The translations under genes were made by a program, and so were the position numbers. Positions 13,485 through 33,598 of a stretch of DNA of 64,000 nucleotides are shown piece after piece; position 1 is the stretch's first letter, and every line of letters starts with the position of its first letter. The DNA comes from Streptomyces showdoensis. Lineage in GTDB: Bacteria > Actinomycetota > Actinomycetes > Streptomycetales > Streptomycetaceae. The DNA lies in NCBI RefSeq assembly GCF_039535475.1, contig NZ_BAAAXG010000010.1, positions 1-64,000 on the forward strand. Direction: 5' to 3'. The notes below the pieces were generated by a model. That model was not told where the DNA came from. It worked only from the letters and a program-made list of their open reading frames with translations, and ran no database searches.

Positions 13485-14813
13485 TTGAGCTCGTTCGGGA
13501 CAGATCTGCGGATGAAGGCCGAGAGCGTCACGATCCGACCCCTGCAGACCTTCGACAAGCGGGTGAAGGTCCTCGGCTCCAAGAGCTACTCCAACCGCTA
13601 CCTCGCGCTCGCCGCCCTCTCCGGCGAGGCGACCACCATCGAGGGCGCCCTCGTCTGTGACGACACGCAGTTCCTCGCCGGTGCGCTGCGCGCCTTCGGG
13701 CACGTCGAGGTGGAGATCGACGCCGCGGCCGAGCGGATCACCGTCACGCCCACCGGCAGGCCCATGACGGCCCCGGCCGAGGAGGTGTACGTCGGCGCCG
13801 CCGGCACCCCCATCCGGTTCCTGATCGCCATGGCGGGCCACGCCGACGGGACGACCGTGCTCACCGGCACGAAGCGCATGCAGGAGCGGCCCATGGGCTC
13901 GCTGCTCGACGCGCTGCCCGGTGTCGGAGTGACGGCCGAAGCGGTACGCGGCAACGGCAGCCCGCCCATCAGGGTCACCGGTCCGAGCTTCCGCGGCGGT
14001 TCGACGCGCATCAGTGGCGCGGTCAGCTCGCAGTTCACCTCCAGCCTCCTGGTCAACGCCACGCGCGCCGAGCAGGACACCGAGATCCACCTCGTCGACG
14101 ACCTGATCTCCAAGCCGTACGTCGAGATGACGATCGCCGCCCTCGCCGAGCTGGGCGTCACCGTCGAGCGCGACGGCTACACCCGCTTCAAGGTCGCCGC
14201 GGGCCAGAAGCTGCGCGGCGGCACCGTGGCGGTCGAGCCCGACGCCTCCGGCATGTCCTACTTCCTCGCCGCCGCCGCCGTGCTCGGCGGAACGGTCACC
14301 GTCCCGGGCATCGGCAGGACCTCCAAGCAGGGCGACGTCGGCCTCGTCGACGCCCTGGTCCGCATGGGGTGCACGGCCGAGGTCACGGACGACTCCATCA
14401 CCCTGACCGGCGGGGAGCTCCACGGCATCGACATCGACATGGAGACCATGCCGGACGTCGTCCCCACCCTCGCGGTCGTCGCCGCCTTCGCCCGGGGCAC
14501 CACGCACATCAGCAACATCGCGAGCCTGCGGATCAAGGAGTGCGACCGCATCGCCGCCGTCACCACCGAGCTGCGCAAGATGGGCATCACCGTCGAGGAG
14601 CACGCCGACGCGATGACCATCACCGGCGGCACGCCCCACGGCGCCGTCATCGACACGTACGACGACCACCGCATCGCCATGTGCTTCGCCATCGCCGGTC
14701 TGCGCACCGAAGGCGTCGTCATCACGGACCCCGGGTGCGTCGCGAAGTCCTTCCCGACCTTCTGGCAGACGCTCGACGGCCTCCACGGCGACGACACCAC
14801 GAGCACGCTGTGA
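13485..14813 (+). CDS. EPSP-synthase-like enolpyruvyl transferase, predicted arsenoenolpyruvate synthase
   Basis: 442 residues, the normal size for AroA. PEP-site features of EPSP synthase are kept: GSKSYSNR with Lys33, a PD motif in DMETMPD, RIKECDR and a late Lys in PGCVAKSFPTF. The usual NAGTA-x-R loop reads AAGTPIR (residues 105-111) and other sites that would contact shikimate 3-phosphate differ. A similar AroA homologue next to a phosphoglycerate-mutase homologue occurs in the S. lividans arsenical cluster, where it is proposed to join arsenate to the PEP enolpyruvyl group. By that precedent and this context the product would be arsenoenolpyruvate. I chose the TTG start because GGGAGAGG lies just upstream; ATG at 13512 is the alternative. 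A housekeeping AroA is unlikely here. Confidence 0.8.
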   Translation: MSSFGTDLRMKAESVTIRPLQTFDKRVKVLGSKSYSNRYLALAALSGEATTIEGALVCDDTQFLAGALRAFGHVEVEIDAAAERITVTPTGRPMTAPAEEVYVGAAGTPIRFLIAMAGHADGTTVLTGTKRMQERPMGSLLDALPGVGVTAEAVRGNGSPPIRVTGPSFRGGSTRISGAVSSQFTSSLLVNATRAEQDTEIHLVDDLISKPYVEMTIAALAELGVTVERDGYTRFKVAAGQKLRGGTVAVEPDASGMSYFLAAAAVLGGTVTVPGIGRTSKQGDVGLVDALVRMGCTAEVTDDSITLTGGELHGIDIDMETMPDVVPTLAVVAAFARGTTHISNIASLRIKECDRIAAVTTELRKMGITVEEHADAMTITGGTPHGAVIDTYDDHRIAMCFAIAGLRTEGVVITDPGCVAKSFPTFWQTLDGLHGDDTTSTL

Positions 14814-16327
14814 ACGCCGGAACCCCGGGCATCCTCCTGGTCCTCGACGGCTGGGGCCACGCGGGGCCGAGCGAGGCCAACGCGCTGACCGCGGCGGCCA
14901 CGCCGTACCTCGACGGTCTGCTCGCCGACTGCCCGGCCGTGCTGGCCGAAGCCTCCGGTACCGCCGTCGGCCTGCTCCCCGGCACGGTCGGCAACTCCGA
15001 GATCGGTCACATGGTCATCGGGGCCGGGCGGCCCGTCCCGTACGACAGCGTGCTCGTCCAGGAGGAGATCTCCAGCGGACGCATGCGGTCGAACGCGACC
15101 CTGGTCGAGGTGCTGAACCGGCTCTCCGCCGCCGGGGGGACCCTGCACCTCGTCGGGCTCTGCTCCGACGGCATGATCCACGCCGATGTGCAGCACCTGC
15201 GGGAACTGCTCCGCATCGCGGCCCGGTTCTCCGTGCCCGCGGTCCGCGTCCACGCCATCACCGACGGGCGCGACGTCGCCGACCACACGGCCGCCGCGTA
15301 TCTCGGCCTCGTCGAGGGCTTCGTCGCCGAGGCGGGCGTCGGCCAGGTGGCCACCGTCGTCGGGCGCGGCTACGCGCTCGACAAGAGCGGCGACCTCGAA
15401 CTGACCGAGAAGGTCTCCCTCGCCCTCGTCGACGGCAAGGGCGAGGCGATCGGCGAGCCGCAGGAGGCGCTGGAGCTGACTCGGCGGGGTGACGAATGGG
15501 TGCCGCCCTGCGTCGTCACGGGAGCCGACGGCCGGCCGCTGGGCCCGGTGCGGGACGGTGACGCCGTCCTGTTCACGAACTTCCGCAGCGACCGCATCCA
15601 GCAGCTGGCGGACGACCTGTACCGGCGGCTGGCCGGCCGTGGGGTCACCTTCCTCAGCCTCGCGCAGTACGACACCGAGGCGGCCATCCCGCCGCTGGTG
15701 CACCGGTCGGACGCGGGAGGAGGTCTGGCCGCCGAGCTCGCCGCGCACGGTGTGCGCTCGGTGCGCATCGCCGAGGCCGAGAAGTTCGAGCACGTGACGT
15801 ACTACCTGAACGGCCGGGACGCGGCCGTCGTCCCCGTCGAGGAACACGTCAGGGTCACCGGCGACGTGGCTCCCGACTACACGGCGCGGCCGGAGATGAA
15901 CCTCGACCGGGTCACGGAAGCGGTGGTCTCGGCCGCCGGCCGCGACGACGTCCCCCTCGTGGTCGCCAACCTCGCCAACATCGACGTCGTCGGTCACACC
16001 GGTCACTTCGACGCGACCCGCCGGGCCGCGGAGCACACCGACCGCGCCGTGGAGGCCGTCTGCCACGCCGCACGGGCGACCGGCCGCTGGGTGCTGCTCG
16101 TCGGGGACCACGGCAACGCCGAGAAGATGCTCACCGACGCCTCCGCCGGCGCCCGACCGTACGGCGGGCACACGACCAACCCGGTCCCTGCCGTGCTCGT
16201 CCCGGCGCCCGGGCAGCAGGTGGCCGCTCCGGCGGGGCCCGCCACCCTGGCCGACATCGCGCCCAGCGTCCTGGCGCTGCTCGGGCTCGCCCCGGCGCCG
16301 CGCATGACCGGGCGGCCCTTGTGGTGA
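14810..16327 (+). CDS. Phosphoglycerate-mutase-like enzyme, predicted arsonopyruvate mutase
   Basis: 505 residues, the length of cofactor-independent phosphoglycerate mutase. The alkaline-phosphatase-superfamily metal sites remain: LDGWG near the start, the nucleophile region VGNSEIGHM, NIDVVGHTG, GDHGNAE and HTTNPVP. The substrate pocket has changed: the usual DGRDTPP-x-S is DGRDVADHT, and the GR-x-YAMDRD-x-RWDR segment is GRGYALDKSGDLEL, losing the arginines that hold phosphoglycerate. This fits a mutase acting on arsenoenolpyruvate to form the carbon-arsenic bond of 3-arsonopyruvate, as proposed for the homologue in bisenarsan-type clusters. It overlaps the AroA-like gene by a GTGA junction, so the two are translationally coupled. 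Confidence 0.8.
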   Translation: MNAGTPGILLVLDGWGHAGPSEANALTAAATPYLDGLLADCPAVLAEASGTAVGLLPGTVGNSEIGHMVIGAGRPVPYDSVLVQEEISSGRMRSNATLVEVLNRLSAAGGTLHLVGLCSDGMIHADVQHLRELLRIAARFSVPAVRVHAITDGRDVADHTAAAYLGLVEGFVAEAGVGQVATVVGRGYALDKSGDLELTEKVSLALVDGKGEAIGEPQEALELTRRGDEWVPPCVVTGADGRPLGPVRDGDAVLFTNFRSDRIQQLADDLYRRLAGRGVTFLSLAQYDTEAAIPPLVHRSDAGGGLAAELAAHGVRSVRIAEAEKFEHVTYYLNGRDAAVVPVEEHVRVTGDVAPDYTARPEMNLDRVTEAVVSAAGRDDVPLVVANLANIDVVGHTGHFDATRRAAEHTDRAVEAVCHAARATGRWVLLVGDHGNAEKMLTDASAGARPYGGHTTNPVPAVLVPAPGQQVAAPAGPATLADIAPSVLALLGLAPAPRMTGRPLW

Positions 16328-32666: not shown

Positions 32667-33598
32667 TCGTCGACTCCCTGGGCCTGCCGATGGCACTCGT
32701 CGACGTCGATCAGGCGCTGGACGGGACGTGGCGGGCGTACGAGCAGGAGGTGGACCTCGTCAGGGTCCAGGACCCGCCCGCGGACTCCTGGCCCCTGCTC
32801 AGGGAGGCCGGCTTCCTGCCGAAGCCCCAGGTCGTCATGTGGCGTGCGGAGGCGCGGACGTCGGAGGAGGAGTACCTCGCCGCCCTGTCGGGGAAGGACC
32901 GCTACGACATCCGGTCCGCCTACCGCAAGGCGGAGGCGGCCGGACTCCGGGTCACCACGGAACCGCTGACCGTCCCGCTGCTCGACGAGTTCCTGGAGCT
33001 GTACGCACGCCAGGTCGCCGAGATGCGCAACGGCTGGGCCGTCGCGGTCCGGCAGCGCGCGAACATCCTGGCGGAGGCCGGGACGTACCGGGTCGTCACC
33101 GTCCGCGCGGGGGAGGTCCTGGTGGGCGCGTGCCTGAACCAGGACCTGCCGGCGAACGACGAGATGCGGGCCCGGTTCTCGGCCGTGACCGCGGGTCAGC
33201 GTGGTGACAGCCTCTCCCGCGTCCTGTACGGCGAGACGCTGCGCGAGGCACGGCTCCGCGGTCGTCGCTGGGCCACCCTCGGGCGTGACATCAACCTCTA
33301 CGGCCACGTGGGCAACGCGGGCCTCTTCGGATTCAAGTCGCGGCTCGGCTTCGGCGCGGTGCCGGGGCAGCTCGTCGAGCCCGGCAGCGGTTCGCACCAG
33401 GCCGATCGGGTGGTCCGGCTCGTCGAACTCTCCGACCCGACGCTGCTGTTGTCCTACGCGCCGGTGGCGGGGGAGCGGGAGGCCGTGGCCGCGCCGCTCT
33501 GGCTGAACCTCTTCACCTCGTCCGAGGAACCGGACGTCCGGCCCTTCCGGGGCGTCGGTCTCGCCGGCACGACCGTGCACGGCATCCGCCCCGCCTGA
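32663..33598 (+). CDS. GNAT/FemAB-like transferase 2
   Basis: 311 residues, weakly similar in layout to the FemAB-like protein at 20305. Landmarks are YLAALSGKDRYDIRSAYRKAEAAGL and the late LGRDINLYGHVGNAGLFGFKSRLGF, the equivalent of the conserved C-terminal core of lipid II FemX-like and BioF2-like enzymes. It would form an amide on a growing peptide or acylate an amine. It has no Cys-Cys end. It is the last gene of the plus-strand block, closed by a strong hairpin at 33603-33646. Confidence 0.7.
   Translation: MIVDSLGLPMALVDVDQALDGTWRAYEQEVDLVRVQDPPADSWPLLREAGFLPKPQVVMWRAEARTSEEEYLAALSGKDRYDIRSAYRKAEAAGLRVTTEPLTVPLLDEFLELYARQVAEMRNGWAVAVRQRANILAEAGTYRVVTVRAGEVLVGACLNQDLPANDEMRARFSAVTAGQRGDSLSRVLYGETLREARLRGRRWATLGRDINLYGHVGNAGLFGFKSRLGFGAVPGQLVEPGSGSHQADRVVRLVELSDPTLLLSYAPVAGEREAVAAPLWLNLFTSSEEPDVRPFRGVGLAGTTVHGIRPA

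Follow-up and report, generated by a model that had tools for sequence, protein, structure and literature searches.

A run of 18 genes, all on the + strand, occupies positions 13485-33598 of a 64,000-nucleotide stretch of Streptomyces showdoensis DNA (contig NZ_BAAAXG010000010.1; hereafter the window), beside arsenic resistance (ars) genes. The run begins with homologues of 5-enolpyruvylshikimate-3-phosphate synthase (EPSPS; aroA) and cofactor-independent phosphoglycerate mutase (iPGM; gpmI) of the kind known as bsnM and bsnN. We read it, with a probability of about 0.6, as a bsnMN-type arsenical cluster in which arsenate would be converted through arsonoalanine into a small peptide, the arsenic likely residing on twin-cysteine arms of enzymes and carriers.

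The original prediction for this DNA gave the order, strand and coordinates of the genes, and re-examination together with Pfam and NCBIfam scans of the window proteins bears these out. The proposed translational coupling of the first two genes agrees with a 4-nt overlap (gpmI GTG start at 14810), and the family scans recover the list of enzymes: EPSPS, iPGM, a CTP-synthase-like amidotransferase, an M28 peptidase, three ATP-grasps (AG1, AG2 and AG3), two GNAT/FemAB-type proteins (FemA and FemB), two ABC transporters and a class I aminotransferase (Table 1). The three small Cys-rich proteins that had been proposed hold in part. A 34-aa peptide and an SCCG-repeat protein, both without a family match in these scans, fit the description, whereas the CMD-fold protein, with three cysteines, is hardly Cys-rich. 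A copper module, C-terminal Cys-Cys (CC) tails and fusions of SCCG-type units with FemAB-like enzymes had gone unmentioned.

Three other Streptomyces genomes and Kutzneria sp. 744 have a match for each of the 18 genes, with the order preserved, which indicates that the arrangement is more than chance. FemB marks the right edge of this conserved block.

Table 1. Coordinates (window numbering) and basis of assignment for genes of the block and its flanks
Feature	Position	Strand	Basis or remark
bsnM-like aroA (EPSPS family)	13485..14813	+	PF00275, 392 bits; groups with 17 other mutase-coupled copies; predicted arsenoenolpyruvate maker
bsnN-like iPGM	14810..16327	+	TIGR01307 over cut-off; substituted residues; predicted arsonopyruvate maker
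CTP-synthase C-terminal-like glutamine amidotransferase	16398..17090	+	NF004836, 262 bits (cut-off 260)
M28 peptidase	17360..18586	+	PF04389
CMD-fold protein, end NTCC	18623..18973	+	PF02627; candidate arsenic carrier
ATP-grasp ligase AG1, tail SREFKSCC	19020..20294	+	nearest solved structure 3vot
FemA, FemX-fold transferase, end RRCC	20296..21432	+	fold match FemX, Sbb17/Sba18
ATP-grasp ligase AG2, no CC tail	21432..22610	+	ATP-grasp family match
ATP-grasp ligase AG3, tail HTSCC	22622..23869	+	tail identical in five genomes
34-aa Cys peptide, 7 Cys, end CACACCD	23965..24069	+	conserved in four other genomes
ABC exporter subunit 1	24166..25857	+	family scan
ABC exporter subunit 2	25854..27779	+	family scan
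SCCG-repeat protein, 4 units, Ala/Pro-rich linkers	27772..28125	+	sequence repeats; CC units FemAB-fused in six sister loci
YtkA-like lipoprotein	28166..28705	+	PF13115
Class I aminotransferase	28711..29886	+	PF00155; dedicated copy in 10 decarboxylase-free bsnMN genomes; predicted arsonopyruvate aminotransferase
CopZ-like metallochaperone	29963..30190	+	matches below the models' cut-offs
CopA-like P-type ATPase	30330..32666	+	TIGR01511 over cut-off
FemB, second GNAT/FemAB-type protein, no CC tail	32663..33598	+	PF13480; right edge of conserved block
Divergent regulator-like protein	12187..13266	-	weak NarL match below cut-off; 50-81% identity in relatives
ars flank (ArsR-type genes, ArsK-like MFS, flavin adenine dinucleotide (FAD) oxidoreductase, ACR3, ArsC-like, ArsO)	33664..41328		family scans

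The bsnMN pair and a predicted fork at arsonopyruvate

In a tree of 30 AroA sequences, all 18 mutase-coupled copies lie on one side of a 100/99 branch, with the 12 other AroA rows apart from them. The mutase gives a similar picture: among the matches listed (80 loci), identity is 56-87% for 16 actinobacterial copies and at most 39% for the remaining 64. All 17 bsnN-type proteins compared carry substitutions (e.g. R192K, R264Q and G336R) at residues that do not vary among 28 other iPGMs. Compared with a solved structure, the product of the window aroA retains the EPSPS motifs, and it differs at many positions that are fixed in its group.

Standard models call the two genes aroA and gpmI, and an annotated plasmid relative carries the same names, as would be expected of ordinary shikimate and glycolysis duplicates lying beside a resistance island. 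That explanation is extremely improbable, given that the pair forms a separate group in the AroA tree, that its linkage with ars genes is fixed, and that the source genome has further AroA copies elsewhere (five EPSPS-family matches in all). The original prediction had spoken of an arsenical-type pair and had raised the question of whether it would cluster with housekeeping AroA and phosphoglycerate mutase (PGM). It did not, and a housekeeping AroA/PGM identity was rejected on the tree and the mutase identity gap. Judged by sequence, the two adjacent EPSPS and iPGM homologues, separate from the housekeeping copies, form an arsenical (bsnMN-type) pair. Three genomes (G000:C28:498515-499726, i.e. 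L003/L118; L117; and L119) have another type of AroA, which shows about 40% identity to BsnM and sits nearer BsnM in the tree than the other AroA rows do.

The 18 bsnMN genomes were also compared for phosphonopyruvate decarboxylase (model TIGR03297), to which all 18 have weak matches below the cut-off. Matches over the cut-off occur in eight genomes, in every case inside the bsnMN stretch. The other ten (the source genome of the window, G225, L006, L007 and L021; L008, L009, L011, L014 and L017) instead carry an aminotransferase at the same locus, 56-87% identical to that of the window. No such aminotransferase lies within ~10 kb either side of the bsnMN locus in the eight decarboxylase genomes, each of which has a single match genome-wide at E 1e-60, with 41-43% identity. 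Decarboxylase and dedicated aminotransferase thus occur together in 0/18 genomes. Placed on the bsnM tree, this label requires at least two changes, so the fork does not go back to a single inherited accident, even though these loci are few and related to one another.

By family and linkage, the window holds a cluster-dedicated enzyme of the aspartate aminotransferase type. The absence of a phosphonopyruvate decarboxylase, as originally proposed, agrees with the lack of a match over the cut-off in the source genome; the proposed absence of a polyketide synthase likewise holds for the family matches of the 18 block genes, the rest of the genome being unsearched. The mutual exclusion across the 18 genomes lends support to the suggested conversion of arsonopyruvate into arsonoalanine, a step whose chemistry stays inferential. 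The phosphonoalamide pathway transaminates phosphonopyruvate where the proposed bisenarsan route decarboxylates arsonopyruvate, and the genomes show an exclusive fork at this point; by this analogy, arsonoalanine is the best inference for the product of the aminotransferase. If so, the genomic choice between decarboxylase and aminotransferase at arsonopyruvate would make the product class predictable from sequence.

Twin-cysteine tails, small cysteine proteins and ligases

In each of the five genomes, four block proteins (the CMD protein, AG1, FemA and AG3) have Cys-Cys as their very last residues. The last five residues of AG1 and AG3 are identical to those in Kutzneria, with the preceding stretch only 31% and 19% identical, respectively; the CMD protein and FemA each show 80% identity over these five positions. 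A CC end is found in 66/69 close AG1 homologues, and 0/45 distant ATP-grasps have CC within their last six residues. It also occurs in 44/45 FemA homologues, where the one without it covers 38% of the query, and in 21/21 CMD homologues. The tails of AG1 (residues 412-424) and FemA (368-378) are predicted to be disordered.

The usual active site of the CMD family (AhpD) is an internal CxxC motif. Eighteen of the 21 CMD homologues have no cysteine other than the CC end, which implies that this site is gone from the family here; the other three and the window protein have one. The protein and its homologues thus lack the internal CxxC expected of an AhpD/CMD thiol enzyme.

As a control, 1109 open reading frames of at least 100 residues were taken from 96 other loci, other bsnMN loci included. 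CC occurs within the last five residues of 14 and at the very end of two. At the latter rate (2/1109), the chance of at least four of 18 block proteins ending in CC is ~3e-8, with proteins treated as independent. Moreover, 13 of the 14 lie in bsnMN loci: six FemAB-like proteins, five FAD oxidoreductases and two short proteins. The short proteins (L010:16807-17265 and L018:18133-18591) have a CC end and further CC pairs, and the one in L010, on which the family scan was run, belongs to the ArsI/CadI family. FAD oxidoreductases of the ars flank (window 35289-36677; L012, L013, L015, L016 and L018) carry CC pairs in a low-complexity C-terminal tail.

Cysteine pairs also recur in the small proteins of the block. 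The 34-aa peptide is 94-97% identical in four other genomes, and its 94% identity to the Kutzneria copy is the highest of the block, with six synonymous and two nonsynonymous codon differences. Across genomes, the SCCG-repeat protein has three to four SCCG units, joined by linkers rich in Ala and Pro. Six sister loci combine bsnMN with an aminotransferase (L008, L009, L011, L014, L017 and plasmid stretch L128, whose aminotransferase is assigned by annotation); in these, the FemAB-like enzyme itself has two to six CC-containing units at its N-terminus and GGCCG or GSCCG at its C-terminus, giving five to nine Cys-Cys pairs in all; Pfam was run on the L128 copy only. This fusion links the SCCG-repeat protein to a FemAB-type step. 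Directly upstream of the FemAB-like enzyme in L128, the plasmid sister locus, lies a 108-aa protein (L128:8733-9059) whose N-terminus resembles a signal sequence and which contains six GAGWD[ST] repeats; it could be a ribosomal precursor or a peptide of the cell surface.

The 34-aa peptide is small and acidic and adjoins three ATP-grasps and a peptidase, a setting reminiscent of LysW, an amino-group carrier that an ATP-grasp would load with an amino acid and the M28 enzyme would release. The LysW C-terminal motif is EDWGE. The peptide ends in CACACCD in all five genomes, no LysW family match was found in the scans, and AG1 resembles free L-amino acid ligases; a LysW-like carrier is therefore highly implausible and was rejected on its C-terminus.

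A profile search of AG1 against solved structures found the L-amino acid ligase 3vot (E 2e-59) and also BacD, and the best fold match of its predicted model (predicted local distance difference test, pLDDT, 90) is again 3vot. AG1, AG2 and AG3 are 37-38% identical to one another. Ligases of the kind used in a phosphonoalamide-like pathway are thus present, AG1 by profile and fold and AG2 and AG3 by ATP-grasp families. The FemA profile matched no solved structure by sequence at E 0.01, and a fold search was used instead. Its predicted model (pLDDT 89) best matches FemX, followed by the aminoacyl-tRNA-dependent peptide synthases Sbb17 and Sba18 (11-14% identity). The peptide assembly envisaged in the original prediction is supported by these L-amino-acid-ligase and FemX folds, both taken from predicted models.

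Copper module, flanks and distribution

Inside the block, a copper module (28166-32666) comprising the YtkA-like lipoprotein, CopZ and CopA is present in all five genomes. Its retention could mean that the thiols serve copper, in a cluster that makes or handles a copper-binding compound and has its arsenic genes mainly for resistance. We regard this as improbable: the block is framed by bsnMN and ars genes, and CC tails recur in other types of bsnMN loci. Within the arsenical cluster that we favour, one guess is that CopZ and CopA keep copper off the tail thiols.

The ars flanks proposed earlier are confirmed by the family scans for ArsR-type genes (at 11771, 33664, 36809 and 37818), ACR3 (38234-39334) and ArsO (40276-41328), the last two over cut-offs; the ArsK-like and ArsC-like proteins fall below them. 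Upstream of the block, all four relatives retain the divergent regulator-like gene, and three of them also have a molybdopterin oxidoreductase. In the window the latter lies near the block (9066-11579), has formate-dehydrogenase alpha as its best model, below cut-off, and might set the balance between arsenate and arsenite. The Kutzneria match to M28 is divided between two frames (12682-13317 and 13458-13952 of joined stretch L105), reflecting either a broken gene or an assembly error. The amidotransferase has a counterpart in 14 of the 16 bsnMN loci compared; its NF004836-type family includes selenoprotein forms, as described in PMC13188914. Promoter and terminator scans of the block were close to chance level. 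The only sigma-70-like promoter match in 13200-33100 is TTGACA-18-GATACT at 17087-17116, before the M28 gene, where the expected number is 0.5.

Relatives of the CMD protein are rare. They were found in 2/392 genomes of the genus sample, one being the source genome itself, and in 1/396 of the phylum sample, again the source genome. The 297 genomes sampled from the family to which the Kutzneria genome belongs yielded one, the Kutzneria genome itself. The family of the Microtetraspora genome gave 0/297, which is not proof of absence, as the protein search lists members from Streptosporangium, Herbidospora and Sphaerisporangium. Among plasmid records, the CMD protein has no relative, and the mutase points to a sister locus on one Streptomyces plasmid, with <60% identity in the remaining 43 records. 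AG3 matches in 150 plasmid records are all <60% identical.

Proposed pathway and known systems

In the pathway we propose, BsnM would convert arsenate to arsenoenolpyruvate, which BsnN would rearrange to arsonopyruvate. The aminotransferase (28711-29886) would then form arsonoalanine, to which L-amino-acid-ligase-type ATP-grasps and FemX-fold transferases would add amino acids. The ABC pair may export the peptide, and the M28 peptidase could trim the product or protect the host. During these steps, trivalent arsenic would be held on the Cys-Cys arms.

Vicinal cysteines form As(III) sites in ArsD, ArsI and MerA tails. In the regulator AfArsR, an adjacent Cys pair with a third Cys binds trivalent arsenic (PMC11212059), and by analogy the Cys-Cys tails likely hold As(III) forms of the intermediates, keeping them from the rest of the cell. 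Going further, we tentatively suggest, at less than even odds, that the arms are an arsenic carrier system, in which a reduced organoarsenical is tethered by two As-S bonds to CC tails, SCCG arms and the 34-residue peptide and handed between ligases and FemX-type enzymes, like acyl groups on phosphopantetheine arms. This would amount to an assembly line with arsenic itself as the covalent handle, and CC tails would become a recognisable sequence mark with which to search for unknown arsenic enzymes.

A serious rival, although a rather unlikely one, keeps the same arsonoalanine-peptide pathway and lets the tails and small Cys proteins only scavenge arsenite and shield enzymes, carrying no intermediates. 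The AfArsR site also fits such scavenging, and proteins of the resistance type, namely FAD oxidoreductases and an ArsI/CadI protein, have CC tails as well. Against this, it is the ligases and transferases themselves that bear the tails, and FemAB-like enzymes have CC units fused to them.

Several points weigh against the pathway with arsenic-bearing arms. Arsonates, being As(V), would bind thiols only after reduction, and a dedicated reductase was not found in the block. Tails are absent from AG2, FemB, M28, the aminotransferase, BsnM and BsnN, as well as from the ABC proteins, CopZ, CopA, the amidotransferase and the lipoprotein. Their presence on resistance-type proteins (FAD oxidoreductases, ArsI/CadI) means that they may only handle arsenite, and with CopZ and CopA encoded in the block, Cu(I) is a competing ligand. 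Finally, the aminotransferase matches aspartate-aminotransferase models below their cut-offs, so that on sequence alone arsonopyruvate is a putative substrate.

Among the papers listed in the literature searches, which left most subscription journals outside, none was found to report the SCCG-FemAB fusions, the Cys-Cys arms, the branch through an aminotransferase or the set of ligases and FemX-type enzymes, nor was there any paper on arsonoalanine; organoarsenic with ATP-grasp and biosynthetic gene cluster returned only an unrelated algal study. The bsnMN class itself, widespread and with very diverse surroundings, is already published (PMC12159101). For bisenarsan of S. lividans, the pathway proposed there uses bsnM/bsnN to reach arsonopyruvate, which is then decarboxylated. 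The window shares with that cluster the bsnM/bsnN pair, ars genes and, as far as PMC12159101 describes it, the lack of an assigned S-adenosylmethionine (SAM) enzyme. It differs in having no decarboxylase (BsnJ) over cut-off genome-wide and no polyketide synthase in the family matches of the 18 genes, with an aminotransferase, ligases and FemX-type enzymes instead. The C-As bond of arsinothricin (PMC6465285) is made by a radical SAM enzyme (PMC12159101); unlike such SAM-based routes (arsinothricin, arsenosugars), the 18 genes have no radical SAM enzyme or methyltransferase among their family matches.

Two protein-level comparisons bear on the arms and on peptide assembly. AfArsR resembles the tails in having adjacent cysteines in a flexible segment, but it is a regulator with a third Cys, whereas here the pair lies at the C-terminus of predicted biosynthetic enzymes. 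The solved structures of Sbb17/Sba18 and FemX share the fold of the FemA model, which differs in its low identity and in its CC tail.

The closest parallel in pathway logic is that of the phosphonoalamides, where PnaA transaminates phosphonopyruvate and ATP-grasp ligases build tripeptides, while other phosphonopeptides use tRNA-dependent GNAT-family enzymes (PMC11867202). In comparison with this PnaABCD system, the window would have arsenic for phosphorus, bsnMN in place of phosphoenolpyruvate mutase (PepM), three ligases and two FemAB-type proteins, and Cys-Cys arms, which suggest how a cell could handle trivalent organoarsenicals within a pathway. The bsnMN cluster class and the diversity of its surroundings are known; what is described here would likely be a new branch of arsenic natural products, giving arsenic its own amino-acid and peptide branch in parallel to the phosphonoalanine peptides.

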